IMG/VR virus record: IMGVR_UViG_3300034018_000529
Coordinates: 1 to 22,121 of that record
From: a virus
Length of the DNA: 22,121 bases
Strand: one strand, 5' to 3'
Below the pieces are notes generated by a model. It was not told where the DNA came from. It ran no database searches and was given only the letters and a program-made list of their open reading frames with translations. The translations under genes were made by a program, and so were the position numbers. Numbering within the stretch: the stretch's first letter is position 1; every line of letters begins with the position of its first letter. Shown here one piece after another: positions 17,446 to 22,062 of this stretch.

Positions 17446-17639
17446 GCTTCATCCCTCTGCTCGCGGCGAGCGCGGTATGCGCGCACCTTACAGGAATTGC
17501 CACAGTACAGCGCCCGCGCAGGGTCCACGGTCTGGAACTTGCGCAGGCAGATGCTGCACCGCAGCGTGACTTTGGTCTTGGCAGCAGCAAGCGCACGGGC
17601 GGCGTCACTGCTGCTGATGGTCGCCCGGCTGCGGCTCAC
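17442..17639 (-). CDS. Small zinc-finger protein
   Basis: 65 residues, GTG start at 17639 overlapping the previous stop (GTGA). Four cysteines are arranged as C28-x2-C31 (LRCSICLRKF) and C46-x3-C50 (YCGNSCKVRAYRARR), the treble-clef style seen in small phage and bacterial zinc-finger proteins. The basic C-terminal helix could contact nucleic acid. Candidate transcription or replication accessory factor; function unknown. Coupled to the membrane protein gene downstream. Confidence 0.65.
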   Translation of the reverse strand: MSRSRATISSSDAARALAAAKTKVTLRCSICLRKFQTVDPARALYCGNSCKVRAYRARREQRDEA

Positions 17640-18484
17640 GCGGCCTCCCGCATCACAATGGAGGCAATTGCCTGCTTGGCGGCCACTGAGGCGCGCTCAG
17701 GCGTGCCGTACTCGCCAATGTTTCCGCCCAGACGCGGCACCCACAGGTCATAGTCCTCACCGCTCACGTAGTTGGCCTCAACGCTGTTATATCCGCCAGA
17801 TTGGGTGTTGGGGTAGGCCAACGGATCGCGCTCTTTAAGAGCGAACGCCAGCCTGCGGTTGAAAGCGGGATGGGCCAGAGCGAATGCGCACGCGCCGGGT
17901 GACCAATCCTGATCGGCGGACTTCAAGACAACGTCCCAGCGGTAGGGCGCGTAGCGCTCATCCACGGCGAGAATGACCGCGTTCACCTCTACGCGGAAGC
18001 CGTCGTTCTCCAGCGAGTCGACGATGGACATAATCGCAGCGCCACGGTTGGTGACGTGCTTTTGCGTGGCCTGCGCGGAGTAGGACGCGGCCACCCCAAT
18101 GCGGAGAACTTTGCTGCGTGCGCGGGGCGCGTCTTCCGGCTCGCCGTCAGTCCACATTGCCTCTGGCAGCCCGGCGAGATGGCTGGGGATGCAGGGAGCG
18201 TAGCCCGCAACAGAGCGCACGCGCTCCAGCGCCGGGGCGCGGTGCGTCATGCGGTCGATCTCGACGCGGGCCTTCTGCAGGTCGGTAGCGCCCTGAGCCC
18301 AGAACCCGCCGCTGAGGCCCATGGACATTGCGCCGTCCATGCCCATGCCCATATCCCACCCCTTACGCGCGTCACGGGACTGTGAAGAATCGCCTGCGCC
18401 GGGCTGGCGGGGGTTGCTGTCGATCCACTGGGCGAGTTCGCGCACGCCGTCGAACGTGCCCCGGAGCGTCGTCTTGATCATCAT
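17636..18484 (-). CDS. Conserved phage protein, probable partner of the AAA+ ATPase (DUF7192-like)
   Basis: 282 residues, ATG at 18484 with AGGACACC upstream. Residues 1-25 are a short domain (TTLRGTFDGVRELAQWID). A glycine/methionine stretch follows at about 44-57. Then come YAPCIPSHLAGLPEAMW, LRIGVAASYSAQATQK, RGAAIMSIVDSLENDGFRVE and AFALAHPAFNRRLAFALKE. From memory, this order of segments matches a phage family (which I recall as DUF7192) often encoded beside CobS/MoxR-like ATPases. It follows the ATPase gene here across only promoter P4. The middle region is reminiscent of a Rossmann or vWA-like fold, but no MIDAS motif is clear. Molecular function unknown. Confidence 0.6.
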   Translation of the reverse strand: MMIKTTLRGTFDGVRELAQWIDSNPRQPGAGDSSQSRDARKGWDMGMGMDGAMSMGLSGGFWAQGATDLQKARVEIDRMTHRAPALERVRSVAGYAPCIPSHLAGLPEAMWTDGEPEDAPRARSKVLRIGVAASYSAQATQKHVTNRGAAIMSIVDSLENDGFRVEVNAVILAVDERYAPYRWDVVLKSADQDWSPGACAFALAHPAFNRRLAFALKERDPLAYPNTQSGGYNSVEANYVSGEDYDLWVPRLGGNIGEYGTPERASVAAKQAIASIVMREAA

Positions 18485-18522
18485 GGTCGGTGTCCTGTGT
18501 GTGAGTGGTGAAGACAGGGGGG

Positions 18523-18551
18523 AGTGTACACCCCCCCGTCGCAGTGTGCAA
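18523..18551 (-). promoter_or_regulatory. Sigma70-like promoter P4 with G-tract in the spacer
   Basis: Minus strand: -35 TTGCAC (18546-18551), 17-base spacer, -10 TACACT (18523-18528). The -35 starts four bases after the AAA+ stop codon. The spacer contains seven consecutive G (C on plus, 18531-18537). A six-C run follows the -10 (G on plus, 18517-18522), so the -10 lies inside a G-run/C-run inverted repeat around GTGTACAC. It drives the 282-residue gene and possibly the recombination and packaging genes downstream. Confidence 0.6.
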
Positions 18552-18555
18552 GTGG

Positions 18556-19653
18556 TCAGACGGCCGCTTCGATGGCGGCGCGCTGGTCGGCTCCCAGACC
18601 CTTCCAGATGAGGGAGTTGGCTGCGTCCACGGTGCCGCCGCCGGCCGCCAGAAAGCGTGCGCCCATAATGGAGGCGCGGGGGGAGACGACGTGCCGGATT
18701 TTCTGCTTTGCGGCCACGTCGCGCACGCGCTGCACAAAGCGCACCCAGCCGTCGATCACCGACTCTTCGGTGCCGCCCGCCGCCCGGAAGGCGGAGGATG
18801 CCAGACGGCGCTCCAGCCCGGCGTCATAGTCGAACTCGACCACTGCAAACCTATCCAAAGTCGCGGCGTCGAGTTGGCTGCGGCCAACATATTGACGGTC
18901 AGCGCCACGGCCGAACGTGTTGGCTGCCGCCACTGCGCGGAAGTCGGCGTGAGCGCGCACAGGCCCGTCGGGGAAGTCACAGAGACCGTTGGCCAGTGCG
19001 GCGTTAAACGCGACAAGCGCCTCCGCGCTACTCGCGTCGATCTCATCGAACAGGAACAAGCCGCCGTGCTCATAGGCATCGCGGAACGCCGTGCGGTGAT
19101 AGGTGCCGCCGGCGTCGATGAAGCCCAGCAACTTGTGCTCCTGACGCACGGCGCTGGTGAACCGAAAGGCCAGACCCAGATGGCGTGCGACCTGCTCGCA
19201 GGCCGTCGTCTTGCCGCTGCCGGCCGGGCCGACCAGATTCACTGCCACGCCCGCCTGCACCCAGCGAATAATCGCGGGCACGCTGGCGTGGACGTGCTCC
19301 TCAGTGATGATCTCGCCAGTGGTCGGCTCGCGCACTTCCAGCGTGATGCGCGTTTCAATCGTCTGGGTGCCGTACAGCTGGATGAGCTCGATCACCCGCT
19401 GTTCATCCAGCGCGGGGGTGAGCGTGCTCACCAGTGCGGCGATGGCTGCCTCCACGCCGCCCTGCTGGGCCGGTGCGGAGATCGTGGCGGGGACCGCCGT
19501 CTCGCGGATCGTGGCGGGGACCCCCCTGTCAGGGACTGCGCCCGTGTCGCGGAATGCGACCAGCTGCGCTTCGTTCCAGCAGGAGGGGCGGTGCCCGGCT
19601 TTGACAGCCTGCAGGCGGATGGCGGCGATTTCGGAAGTGGTCAGCGCGGTCAT
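18556..19653 (-). CDS. MoxR/CobS-like AAA+ ATPase
   Basis: 365 residues, ATG at 19653 with AGAGGACACC leader. Walker A GPAGSGKT is at 142-149, Walker B LFLFDE at 199-204, sensor 1 NT at 245-246 (AAANTFGRG), and the second arginine region LDAATLDRF at 261-269. C-terminal IRHVVSPRASIMGARFLAAG is a lid segment of the MoxR/CobS group. The N-terminal 120 residues are separate: a short helix (EIAAIRLQAVKAGHRPSCW) and a repeated PATI motif at 46-59 (VPATIRE then VPATISA). Relatives remodel protein complexes, often with a vWA partner. Its substrate in phages is unknown. It is transcribed from its own promoter P2. Confidence 0.82.
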   Translation of the reverse strand: MTALTTSEIAAIRLQAVKAGHRPSCWNEAQLVAFRDTGAVPDRGVPATIRETAVPATISAPAQQGGVEAAIAALVSTLTPALDEQRVIELIQLYGTQTIETRITLEVREPTTGEIITEEHVHASVPAIIRWVQAGVAVNLVGPAGSGKTTACEQVARHLGLAFRFTSAVRQEHKLLGFIDAGGTYHRTAFRDAYEHGGLFLFDEIDASSAEALVAFNAALANGLCDFPDGPVRAHADFRAVAAANTFGRGADRQYVGRSQLDAATLDRFAVVEFDYDAGLERRLASSAFRAAGGTEESVIDGWVRFVQRVRDVAAKQKIRHVVSPRASIMGARFLAAGGGTVDAANSLIWKGLGADQRAAIEAAV

Positions 19654-19673
19654 TTCGGTGTCCTCTGGGTTGG

Positions 19674-19691
19674 GCCAGCAAGTGCGCTGGC
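19674..19691 (-). promoter_or_regulatory. Leader hairpin before the AAA+ gene
   Basis: Perfect 6-base stem GCCAGC/GCTGGC with a 6-base loop, lying between the -10 of P2 and the AGAGGACACC ribosome binding site. Hairpins occupy the same place in the leaders of P1 and P3. May protect or tune the mRNA 5' end. Confidence 0.5.
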
Positions 19692-19701
19692 ATGGGGGGG
19701 G

Positions 19702-19729
19702 AGTGTACGCTCTCCCGGGGCAGTGTCAA
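19702..19729 (-). promoter_or_regulatory. Sigma70-like promoter P2 for the AAA+ gene
   Basis: Minus strand: perfect -35 TTGACA (19724-19729), 16-base spacer, -10 TACACT (19702-19707). Eight C follow the -10 directly (G on plus, 19694-19701), so the transcript probably starts in or next to that tract. The distance to the AAA+ ATG leaves a leader of about 40 bases. Confidence 0.75.
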
Positions 19730-19738
19730 CCCCCCGTG

Positions 19739-19760
19739 ATGCGGTTAAACGTAAATATTT
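19739..19760 (-). promoter_or_regulatory. Conserved 22-base box upstream of P2
   Basis: On the plus strand the box starts ATGCGGTTAAACGT and ends ATTT. It matches a box upstream of P1 at 19 of 22 positions and stands exactly 9 bases upstream of the -35 in both cases. The distal end is AT-rich and overlaps a perfect 12-base palindrome GTAAATATTTAC (19751-19762). Candidate activator/repressor site or UP element. Confidence 0.6.
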
Positions 19761-19944
19761 ACTCTGGGGGCGGCAGCACCTCCACTTCAGTGCTGGGGGG
19801 CAGGGAGATCAGGTCGCCCGTGCGGATGACGTAGAGGACCAGCCTGCGGGACTTGCGCCCCGCGTGCCCGTCCTCATGCGTGACTACGATGCACTCCTCA
19901 GCCTGCCAGCGGACGTATGTGCCGGACGGGGGCATTGGATTCAC
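19759..19944 (-). CDS. Small hypothetical protein, last gene of the P3 unit
   Basis: 61 residues, GTG start at 19944 overlapping the previous stop (GTGA). An SH3-like or small beta domain is suggested: TYVRWQAEECIVVTHEDGHA, RLVLYVIRTGDLISLP, then STEVEVLPPPE. No known family recognised. Its TAA stop overlaps the conserved box upstream of P2. Confidence 0.5.
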   Translation of the reverse strand: MNPMPPSGTYVRWQAEECIVVTHEDGHAGRKSRRLVLYVIRTGDLISLPPSTEVEVLPPPE

Positions 19945-20168
19945 TCTGCGTCCTCCCCCTCATCGTCATCGTCGCCGTCGTCGTCTGGCGTCTCGACCTC
20001 AGCCCATGCGAGCCGGGCCTCAGTCGCGGCCGTGCGGCGGTCTTTCTCAGCCTGCGGCAGCGCGTCCCAAGCCGCCTGCTCGCGGGCGTCTTCGGCTCGC
20101 GCTGCGGCGAGCATCTCCGCTTCCATCTGGGCGAACACGTCACCCAAGCACTGCGCGTCCCGGCTCAT
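19941..20168 (-). CDS. Small acidic protein
   Basis: 75 residues, ATG at 20168 overlapping the previous stop (ATGA), with GGGAGG upstream. Helical body (DVFAQMEAEMLAAARAEDAR, REQAAWDALPQAEKDRR), then a C-terminal tail dominated by D and E (TPDDDGDDDDEGEDAE). Overall strongly acidic. Small acidic phage proteins can mimic DNA or inhibit host enzymes, but nothing here proves that. Unknown function. Confidence 0.5.
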   Translation of the reverse strand: MSRDAQCLGDVFAQMEAEMLAAARAEDAREQAAWDALPQAEKDRRTAATEARLAWAEVETPDDDGDDDDEGEDAE

Positions 20169-20386
20169 GCCGCAGCCTCCCGCGTGAAGAACTGCCCCCG
20201 GCGCTCGATCAGCCTGCGGGGCTTCCAGCCCCGGGATGTGTCGAGCATGAGCGTCCAGCCGTGCGCCAGAGCCTGCCGGGCGAACGCCTGCGGCACCCGC
20301 CGGGCACCCCAGCCGTCTGAGCCGGTGCGGATGAGGCAGAAGGCGACCTCCTGCCCGTCTTCTGAGAGTGCTGCCAGCCTGTTCAT
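20165..20386 (-). CDS. Small hypothetical protein
   Basis: 73 residues from ATG at 20386, chosen because it overlaps the upstream stop (ATGA). The frame is open further upstream, but those residues are only the neighbouring gene read in another frame. Contains EVAFCLIRTGSDGWGARRVP, QAFARQALAHGWTLMLDTSR and a basic GWKPRRLIERRGQF end. Looks like a compact alpha/beta protein; no family recognised. Confidence 0.5.
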   Translation of the reverse strand: MNRLAALSEDGQEVAFCLIRTGSDGWGARRVPQAFARQALAHGWTLMLDTSRGWKPRRLIERRGQFFTREAAA

Positions 20387-20682
20387 GCTACACCCCCGGC
20401 GGCGATCTCTTTTGCGATACGGGCGCGGTGCCGGGCCACTTCGCTGCGCAGCAGGTGCTTGCTGGGCTCGACGGCAGGAGACGCCACGGTGCGGCGGTTG
20501 TACCAATCGCCCGTCTCGCGGTCGGCTGGGAAGAAGTCAAAGTCATCCCCCCGGAGGCTTTCATTCACCTTCGCGGCGGAGGTGCTGAATTCTGCCATCA
20601 GGTCGGAGATGAATGTGTGCCGTCCGGTTTCGATGTATCGGCGCACAACGGCTGCGCGGATTTTTTCGGCTTTGTGTTTCAT
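20383..20682 (-). CDS. Small protein with possible helix-turn-helix, first gene of the P3 unit
   Basis: 99 residues from ATG at 20682 (MKHKAEK), placed by the CTGAGGACACC leader; the open frame continues upstream but through the promoter. Residues about 5-42 (EKIRAAVVRRYIETGRHTFI, SDLMAEFSTSAAKVNESLRG) have the spacing of a winged or plain helix-turn-helix. The rest is basic and helical (HLLRSEVARHRARIAKEIAA). It could be an early regulator acting on the promoters around it, which is inference only. Confidence 0.55.
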   Translation of the reverse strand: MKHKAEKIRAAVVRRYIETGRHTFISDLMAEFSTSAAKVNESLRGDDFDFFPADRETGDWYNRRTVASPAVEPSKHLLRSEVARHRARIAKEIAAGGVA

Positions 20683-20700
20683 GCTGGTGTCCTCAGTGTG

Positions 20701-20719
20701 CCCCGCCGGGATGGCGGGG
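20701..20719 (-). promoter_or_regulatory. Leader hairpin in the P3 transcript
   Basis: Perfect 7-base stem CCCCGCC/GGCGGGG with a 5-base loop, directly followed by GGGCACACTGAGGACACC. The same 18 bases follow a hairpin in the P1 leader. No T-run follows, so it is not a terminator. Confidence 0.55.
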
Positions 20720-20727
20720 GCAGGCGG

Positions 20728-20755
20728 ATTGTACACTGTCGCGGGCAGGCGTCAA
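20728..20755 (-). promoter_or_regulatory. Sigma70-like promoter P3
   Basis: Minus strand: -35 TTGACG (20750-20755), 16-base spacer, -10 TACAAT (20728-20733). The -35 overlaps the TGA stop of the 84-residue gene. It drives the four small genes 20682-19759. It has no copy of the 22-base upstream box. Confidence 0.72.
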
Positions 20756-21006
20756 GCCGCTGCACCCCCGGCGATGCGGGTGAGCAACTCGCGGGCGCGG
20801 TCAAAATCCGCGCTGGTGCCGCGATTGCAGACGCCATTGAGCGCGGCCAGCAATTCGGGGGCTGCAGCCATGAGGGTAGCGGTTTCGTACTGATCGCCGG
20901 GATCGGTGTCGGTGAAGACTTCGGCAACGATGGTGCTGCCGCGCTTTACAAGCGAGCTACGCTCATAGCCACGGGTAACGGCGGAGAGTTTGGGGGCGTG
21001 TTTCAT
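20752..21006 (-). CDS. Small hypothetical protein downstream of the protease gene
   Basis: 84 residues, ATG at 21006 with CCTGAGGACACCAGC directly before it, the same leader as other unit-first genes. N-terminal MKHAPKLSAVTRGYERSSLV, then DQYETATLMAAAPELLAALN and a C-terminal helix DFDRARELLTRIAGG. Proteins with an "AxLMAAAPELLxAL" segment are common in phages, but no function is established that I know of. Probably transcribed from P1 together with the protease. Confidence 0.55.
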   Translation of the reverse strand: MKHAPKLSAVTRGYERSSLVKRGSTIVAEVFTDTDPGDQYETATLMAAAPELLAALNGVCNRGTSADFDRARELLTRIAGGAAA

Positions 21007-21032
21007 GCTGGTGTCCTCAGGTTGTGTGGGAG

Positions 21033-21091
21033 ACGTTCCCGTGCTGCCCGCACGTGGCGGGCAGACCGTGAATGCCTCAGCCCGGGAACGT
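21033..21091 (-). repeat. Nested inverted repeats between the protease gene and the 84-residue gene
   Basis: Outer arms ACGTTCCCG (21033-21041) and CGGGAACGT (21083-21091) are a perfect 9-base pair. Inner arms CTGCCCG (21044-21050) and CGGGCAG (21058-21064) are a perfect 7-base pair with a CACGTGG loop. The outer arm lies in the last codons of the protease gene. No T-run follows, so it looks like an mRNA structure (processing or translation control) rather than a terminator. Confidence 0.6.
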
Positions 21092-21664
21092 GAGATCGCA
21101 CTCGCCGCAGACCGGGCAGACGGGGTCGCCGCCCTGCCAGCGCATGATCTGCATCAGGCTGGTGCGGGCGACAAAACCGCACGCGCCGCAGGACACCTTC
21201 AACTGCCGGGTGCCGGCGATCTTGCGGTGAGAGACGTCCATCTTGGAGTGCGGGAACGCGCCCAGTGCGTCCGCCAGCCCGGCCAGATCGGCAGCGAGCG
21301 CCTTACCGGCGTGCGTGGCCGTCAGCGGGCCCTCCAGCCCACAGGAGCGGGCGTAAACGGCAAAGCGGCCCCGGTGACCGTCTTGGCAGTCCAGCACGGC
21401 GTGGAGAAGCTCATGCACCAAAACGGGCAGGATGACCATGGGATCGTCGATCTCCGGTGAGATGAACACTTCGTTGACGCCGTCGGTGGACGCGGCGCGA
21501 ACAAAGCACTGCCCGATTGCCTTCTGGCCGCCACGGGAGCCTTTCGGCCAGCCGACAGTGATGCGCACGGGCGGCATCTGCGCGCCCGGGCACTTGGGCA
21601 GGATGGTGCCCTCAAGAATGATGCAGGCCGCTTCAGTCAGCCACGCTTCACGGGTGTCGATCAT
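21077..21664 (-). CDS. SprT-like zinc metalloprotease
   Basis: 195 residues from ATG at 21664, placed by the ACTGAGGACACCGAA leader; the frame continues upstream, but into the promoter. The catalytic zinc site is HELLH at 84-88 with a third ligand H97 (DGHRGRF), the SprT/Spartan arrangement. A C-terminal zinc ribbon has C159-x2-C162 and C183-x2-C186. Relatives such as eukaryotic Spartan cleave proteins crosslinked to DNA; bacterial SprT roles are less clear. In a phage it might clear DNA-protein barriers or a host factor, which is inference. It is first in the P1 unit, compatible with early expression. Confidence 0.8.
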   Translation of the reverse strand: MIDTREAWLTEAACIILEGTILPKCPGAQMPPVRITVGWPKGSRGGQKAIGQCFVRAASTDGVNEVFISPEIDDPMVILPVLVHELLHAVLDCQDGHRGRFAVYARSCGLEGPLTATHAGKALAADLAGLADALGAFPHSKMDVSHRKIAGTRQLKVSCGACGFVARTSLMQIMRWQGGDPVCPVCGECDLTFPG

Positions 21665-21682
21665 TTCGGTGTCCTCAGTGTG

Positions 21683-21699
21683 CCCAACGACGTGCTGGG
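21683..21699 (-). promoter_or_regulatory. Leader hairpin in the P1 transcript
   Basis: Arms CCCA and TGGG flank a short loop, with further partial pairing (CACG/CG). It is directly followed by the 18-base GGGCACACTGAGGACACC (plus 21668-21685) that also follows the P3 hairpin. The stem is weaker than in P3. Confidence 0.4.
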
Positions 21700-21708
21700 A
21701 TGAGGCGC

Positions 21709-21736
21709 ATCGTACATGGCTGCGGGACGGAGTCAA
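21709..21736 (-). promoter_or_regulatory. Sigma70-like promoter P1 for the protease unit
   Basis: Minus strand: -35 TTGACT (21731-21736), 16-base spacer, -10 TACGAT (21709-21714). The leader to the protease ATG is about 40 bases. Spacing and -35 quality match P2 and P3. Confidence 0.7.
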
Positions 21737-21745
21737 TACCCCGGC

Positions 21746-21767
21746 ATACGGTTAAACGTGAAAATTT
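21746..21767 (-). promoter_or_regulatory. Conserved 22-base box upstream of P1
   Basis: On the plus strand it starts ATACGGTTAAACGT and ends ATTT, differing from the P2 box at three positions. It stands 9 bases upstream of the -35, as at P2. The two intervening 9-base stretches share only a CGGGG-type core. Confidence 0.6.
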
Positions 21768-22062
21768 GGCACGGCGCGAATCGTGGCGCTTGCCGCCCGG
21801 TTTCGGGGGTGAGACCCCGGGGATGTCACGGGGATATGTAGATGGGGTGCGGCAACTGTACGTGCGTACACTGTTGCGCCTGCGTTTCGGCCGTGCGACG
21901 ATGGGCGCGGAGGCAAGACTGAGTGACGGTTCTCGCAGTTGAGCACGGGGCTTCAACTGACGGCTTTGACCTCCGCCCTGCCGGAGCCGTGGAAAGCACC
22001 CGGCGGCAGGGGAAGGCACTGCGAGATCGCCTGCACCGTCGGGCAGGTCAGAGGGACACCTG
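21768..22062. other. Non-coding region with inverted repeats
   Basis: No convincing gene on either strand. Visible structure: a hairpin with GGCA and GCGC arms at about 21768-21793, which on the minus strand is followed by AAATTTT and may be a weak terminator; GGGGT/ACCCC around GAG near 21805-21817; an imperfect palindrome at 21853-21876; and an 8-base perfect stem CCCTGCCG (21976-21983) with CGGCAGGG (22004-22011). A plus-strand frame from GTG 21923 with GGAGG before it is open to the window end, but its translation looks unnatural. Likely control region and/or structured RNA. Confidence 0.45.
21853..21876. promoter_or_regulatory. Operator-like imperfect palindrome
   Basis: Arms CAACTGTACG and CGTACACTGTTG flank a TG centre. 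The inner six bases on each side (TGTACG/CGTACA) are perfectly symmetric; the outer CAAC/GTTG also pair after a two-base shift. Symmetry of this length suits a dimeric regulator. Position is about 115 bases upstream of the P1 -35. Confidence 0.45.

Follow-up and report, generated by a model that had tools for sequence, protein, structure and literature searches.

A 22-bp box upstream of two predicted phage promoters as a putative regulator site for a SprT-like protease gene and a MoxR-type ATPase gene

A 22-bp box stands at identical spacing upstream of two predicted promoters, P1 and P2, in a 22,121-base virus record, and we read it as a putative binding site through which one sequence-specific regulator of transcription, most likely made by the phage, would serve both promoters. 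We put the probability of this reading at about 0.6. P2 precedes a gene for a SprT-like metallopeptidase, and P1 precedes a gene for a MoxR/CobS-type AAA+ ATPase. The window, by which we mean the whole stretch of DNA analysed, has a GC content of 62.5%, and its probable genes read leftwards, on the minus strand.

On the minus strand the box reads AAATnTTnACGTTTAACCGnAT. The P1 copy occupies positions 19739 to 19760 (AAATATTTACGTTTAACCGCAT; plus strand, ATGCGGTTAAACGTAAATATTT) and the P2 copy positions 21746 to 21767 (AAATTTTCACGTTTAACCGTAT; plus strand, ATACGGTTAAACGTGAAAATTT). As the preliminary description had claimed, the copies are identical at 19 of 22 positions, with the core CGGTTAAACGT exact in both, and 9 nt separate the end of the box from the -35 element at either promoter. 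Each box is predicted to lie at about -65 to -44, a placement that assumes a start site 7 nt past the -10 element. The first two A residues of the P1 box overlap the stop codon of a 61-codon frame (19759 to 19944). The core shows partial dyad symmetry (ACGTTTAACCGT at P2, with 5/6 pairs), although the dyad is weak and the P1 centre reaches 5/7 only. A perfect 12-nt palindrome at P1, GTAAATATTTAC, has no counterpart at P2.

Shuffled sequences did not reproduce this agreement. When the two 100-nt upstream regions were shuffled with dinucleotide content preserved, the best 22-mer identity never exceeded 15 at the same offset (3000 shuffles) or 16 at any offset (200 shuffles), and shuffles of the whole window gave 0 matches. 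A comparison of 25,790 promoter-like site pairs from 175 sources (the gathered loci and the window, some redundant) gave only three pairs that reached 19/22; the other two arose from repeats, one pair lying 62 nt apart in locus L009 and the other belonging to a repeated stretch of L094. In the rest of the window the best 22-mer match to the box carries 8 mismatches. Two further promoter-like sites, P3 and P4, had been described as lacking the box, and they do: their best identities to P1 and P2 at any offset were 13 to 16 (13 and 14 for P4), which is the shuffle range.

The box is a shared conserved island, rather than part of a whole duplicated promoter. With P1 and P2 aligned at the -35 element, the box agrees at 19/22 positions, and the -35 and -10 elements agree at 5/6 and 4/6, respectively; the figures are 15/60 for the upstream flank, 5/9 for the gap, 7/16 for the spacer, and 9/39 for the 39 nt downstream. 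A regulator site is the best reading because the GC-containing words (ACG...CCG) are exact in both boxes while the neighbouring DNA is near random. Retention of G and C in the core argues for a base-specific reading rather than for recognition of AT-richness.

P1 (TTGACA-16-TACACT; 19702 to 19729, with its -35 element at 19729-19724) and P2 (TTGACT-16-TACGAT; 21709 to 21736, -35 element at 21736-21731) are promoter-like by consensus match only, at 10/12 and 9/12 positions, respectively. P3 (TTGACG-16-TACAAT; 20728 to 20755) precedes the gene for a 99-residue protein. The possible P4 (TTGCAC-17-TACACT; 18523 to 18551), which precedes a gene for a DUF7192 protein, matches the -35 consensus at only 3/6 positions; it was missed by the promoter scan and was read from the sequence. 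All four are on the minus strand. The number of consensus promoters between positions 2500 and 22121 is at chance level (3 found versus 2.6 expected from shuffles), and all three that were found sit just upstream of ribosome-binding-site leaders. We infer that P1 and P2 are active as promoters.

Several other features were noted around these promoters. A leader segment, GGACACC ahead of the start codon, recurs at several genes, at 18487, 19655, 20674, 20998, and 21656 (repeat families D1, D7, and D15). Hairpins are predicted at 19651-19695, 20680-20721, and 21004-21075, in the promoter-to-ribosome-binding-site intervals of P1, P3, and the gene for an 84-residue protein; none is predicted in the P4 leader, and that of P2 is weaker. 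The -10 regions also hold TGTAC or CGTAC. Apparently noncoding DNA to the right of P2 contains a near-perfect dyad, TGTACGTGCGTACA, at 21857-21870.

The gene downstream of P2 (21077 to 21664, minus strand, with the start codon placed at 21664 from its leader) encodes a SprT-like metallopeptidase with a C-terminal zinc ribbon that belongs to phrog_6361 and matches annotated SprT-like proteases in phages. The gene downstream of P1 (18556 to 19653, minus strand; phrog_249) encodes an AAA+ ATPase with PDB sequence matches to Midasin and CobS, and its AAA_5 match exceeds the Pfam cut-off, which places it with the MoxR/CobS type. The PHROGs label of this family, "porphyrin biosynthesis," is probably a misnomer. 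The N-terminal part of the gene contains a 27-nt tandem repeat (19469-19529; repeat families D3 and D11).

The DUF7192 protein encoded next (17636 to 18484, minus strand) is probably a VWA-like co-chaperone, as judged from a predicted structure. A model built from 22 sequences (mean pLDDT, 78) was closest to the VWA domain of NorD (Z, 8.0 and 7.9), whose structure was determined together with its partner, the MoxR ATPase NorQ; the next closest match was the MIDAS domain of Rea1 (Z, 7.4). The best Foldseek match was also NorD (E, 0.006), and a PDB sequence search gave no match. These structural scores are middling and not decisive alone for the fold; their rank order agrees with the presence of an AAA+ neighbour that itself matches Midasin and CobS. 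By eye, the MIDAS region appears degenerate.

The preliminary description had called the protease and the ATPase otherwise unrelated, which is wrong. A SprT homologue (34 to 44% identical to that of the window) lies just upstream of the ATPase in 27 of 80 viral ATPase loci (L003-L082), all 27 falling within L019-L053, L071, and L074, although many are near-identical and there are fewer than 27 independent cases. In 26 of these loci the ATPase frame opens ahead of the SprT stop codon or no more than 15 nt past it, the exception being L022. DUF7192 is also present in 26 of the 27, and the remaining locus, L071, ends first. Overall, 47 of the searched loci contained DUF7192; in those measured, its position ranged from a 4-nt overlap with the ATPase gene to 193 nt downstream of it. 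In the window, SprT comes first, then a stretch of about 1.4 kb that holds small genes and P3, and then the ATPase and DUF7192. The intervening genes encode the 84-residue protein (20752 to 21006, minus strand; weak phrog_1273) and the 99-residue protein (20383 to 20682, minus strand). What the window contains thus looks like a split form of a recurring peptidase/AAA+/VWA module, with a box at each of its two halves. Because SprT, ATPase, and DUF7192 recur together and the predicted DUF7192 fold is closest to the NorD VWA domain, the boxes would mark two separated parts of one probable module. The proposal that they co-regulate protease and ATPase is plausible, but the supposed unrelatedness of the two genes does not hold.

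The box was sought in other viruses. Upstream of SprT in the 27 relatives (400 nt each; 154 nt in L040), the best 22-mers carried 8 to 12 mismatches, and sigma-70-like promoters were present there in 8 of the 27, all lacking the box. Because these relatives are distant (SprT, 34 to 44%), the box is evidently not ancient, but this does not show it to be idle. Absence from homologous promoters, which had been named beforehand as evidence against a role for the box, is thus observed only in distant relatives, and no homologous ATPase promoter is expected in them because the ATPase directly follows SprT.

Pattern scans of viral_contigs gave 5 matches to ACGTTTAACCGYAT-gap-TTGAC (by eye, two independent sequences; contigs of 36 to 42% GC), 3 matches to AAATNTTNACGTTTAACCG (contigs of 32 to 42% GC), and 2 matches to the core with -35 and -10 elements, in the near-identical high-GC contigs L203 and L204. 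By a rough estimate these numbers are about those expected by chance. None of the 17 window proteins tested had a relative encoded in the five contigs with the second or third pattern, and the five contigs with the first pattern yielded no relative among the matches listed. The scans yielded no box in related phages, and the known copies of the box are two, both in one phage. Copies of CGTTTAACCG within the relatives' ATPase and DUF7192 genes were rejected as boxes, since by eye they lie in coding DNA. In L204 (positions 1140-1300), an unrelated phage contig, ACGTTTAACCG lies 13 nt before a -35 element with three GTTNAAC words nearby, and the site adjoins a divergent gene for a small protein that is, by eye, a possible ribbon-helix-helix regulator. 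This element was set aside as evidence on the box because it may be a chance occurrence.

The closest terminase to that of the window is in contig L089 (64%), and the closest in a named phage is that of Burkholderia phage BcepC6B (47%). The closest terminases come from Burkholderiales phages and prophages, and these relatives point to Burkholderiales as the host group. Contig L088 represents the same phage (100% identity across 15,825 nt) and ends short of the box region, as does L089; in the additional 9.3 kb of L088 the best match was the core with 1 mismatch. No close relative spanning the box region was found among viral_contigs, where ATPase identity, short matches aside, reached at most about 50% and SprT pattern scans gave no matches. 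Among the matches listed in a protein search of the gathered loci, there was no terminase relative with both SprT and the ATPase. NinB of the window had no phage match. Searches of the window revealed no tRNA and no Rfam family, the sole sub-threshold hit being sR53 (E, 0.55).

Binding of alpha-CTD directly to the AT-rich half of the box, as a displaced UP-type element that strengthens both promoters without a regulator, is an alternative that we regard as unlikely. A UP-type element had been suggested at the outset alongside a regulator acting at fixed spacing; the regulator survives as the best reading, and the canonical element does not, as the normal register (-59..-38) matches at just 6/14 positions at P1 and 5/14 at P2, scored with consensus letters that we take to be the standard ones. 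The AT-rich part does stand out within GC-rich DNA, and the best register, 8 to 9 nt further upstream, reaches 10/14 (P1) and 9/14 (P2). However, this displacement is short of a full helical turn, the 9 nt adjoining the -35 element are G-rich, and the best-kept part of the core is its GC words. The proximal UP subsite of the phage Mu promoter Pm is likewise displaced upstream, to -57..-52, but in the account cited it acts with the activator Mor, not alone (PMC4390567). Because Pm combines an activator site with a displaced alpha-CTD site, a mixed arrangement is conceivable here, and it is possible that AAATnTT serves alpha-CTD while ACGTTTAACCG serves a regulator.

Two further explanations appear improbable. 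P1 might have been copied from P2 when the small genes were inserted, leaving the box as a functionless relic. P1 and P2 do have a 45-nt stretch in common at 78% (repeat family D5), and a ribosome-binding segment of the GAGGACACC type is common to their leaders (D1, D7, and D15), yet a recent copy would match throughout, and the spacer, the downstream DNA, and the upstream flank are near random. Alternatively, the box might be bound by a regulator or nucleoid protein of the host. Borrowing of host factors is frequent in phages, and the closest terminases come from phages and prophages of Burkholderiales. However, ACGTTTAACCGNAT occurred 21 times in 399 Burkholderiales genomes versus 28 times for a reversed-order control, and this lack of excess argues against a common host regulon, at least within Burkholderiales; the true host may lie outside the order, or its regulator may read a looser motif. 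Both boxes also lack TTAA-N7-TTAA, which we take to be CtrA-like, and what is presumably an IHF-like pattern.

The regulator reading has points against it as well: there are only two copies, the dyad is weak, relatives that carry the module lack the box, and the promoter count, by consensus alone, is at chance. In its favour, the same sequence is found at a fixed position at two promoters of one phage, which fits the general kind of phage regulator operator. We infer both that a protein binds the box and that this protein is of phage origin. A regulator encoded outside or inside the fragment would occupy the 22-bp box some 44 to 65 bp before the predicted start, on the same helical face at both promoters. 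Once bound, it would adjust sigma-70 transcription of the SprT-like protease from P2 and of the MoxR-type ATPase and VWA-like protein from P1. Such control would keep expression of the two halves of the protease/AAA+/VWA module in step, split as they are in this phage by the small genes with their own promoter. An activator is slightly favoured over a repressor, at roughly three to two, because the site is upstream of the -35 element and because P1 and P2 each combine a 16-nt spacer with a non-consensus -10 element. The 99-residue protein, which would be expressed from P3, is a candidate regulator with a possible helix-turn-helix recognized by eye; its single-sequence model was poor (pLDDT, 58), and homologue searches, one of which used an extended reading frame of this gene, were empty. 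The true regulator gene may lie beyond the window.

As a means of phage gene control the box itself would be ordinary; what is informative is its target set. If the regulator reading is correct, the box flags genes whose joint expression matters to a phage, and it suggests that a SprT-like protease is functionally linked to a MoxR/VWA chaperone pair that is found repeatedly across many uncultured phages. A more speculative possibility, which we advance tentatively, is that the two sites form a private regulon of a small phage, served by an undescribed phage regulator, through which control of a split SprT-peptidase/MoxR AAA+/VWA module is re-joined; the module would then be a timed machine for protein remodelling and proteolysis, run by the phage.

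Known systems offer partial parallels. At the Mu middle promoter Pm, the activator Mor acts with a partial UP element, and, as here, a phage box precedes a sigma-70 promoter at a set spacing, and a short inverted repeat is preceded by AT-rich DNA; in the cited account, however, the 16-bp Mor site has its centre at -43.5 and takes the place of the -35 element (PMC4390567), whereas the -35 elements TTGACA and TTGACT are retained at P1 and P2. The late promoters of phage P2 resemble the present pair in that one phage activator, Ogr, serves several operons through a common upstream box, but the consensus reported there, TGT-N12-ACA (PMC3931495), is missing from both boxes, and phage P2 controls late operons. 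UP elements of the rrnB P1 type, as summarised in PMC4390567, also place AT-rich DNA upstream of the -35 element; they differ in that their normal register fits poorly here and in that the core of the box holds conserved G and C. For the gene products, the MoxR AAA+/VWA pairs NorQ-NorD, CobS-CobT, and RavA-ViaA join an AAA+ protein to a VWA partner, whose counterpart here would be DUF7192, a predicted VWA-like protein in which the MIDAS region appears, by eye, degenerate. A further parallel is the MoxR-vWA pair of jumbo phages, which, as far as the cited description extends, brings together an AAA+ protein, a VWA-like protein, and a metallopeptidase; the peptidase is fused to the vWA protein there and is a separate SprT-like gene here, and virion assembly and peptide processing have been proposed as the role of the jumbo-phage pair (PMC7824862).
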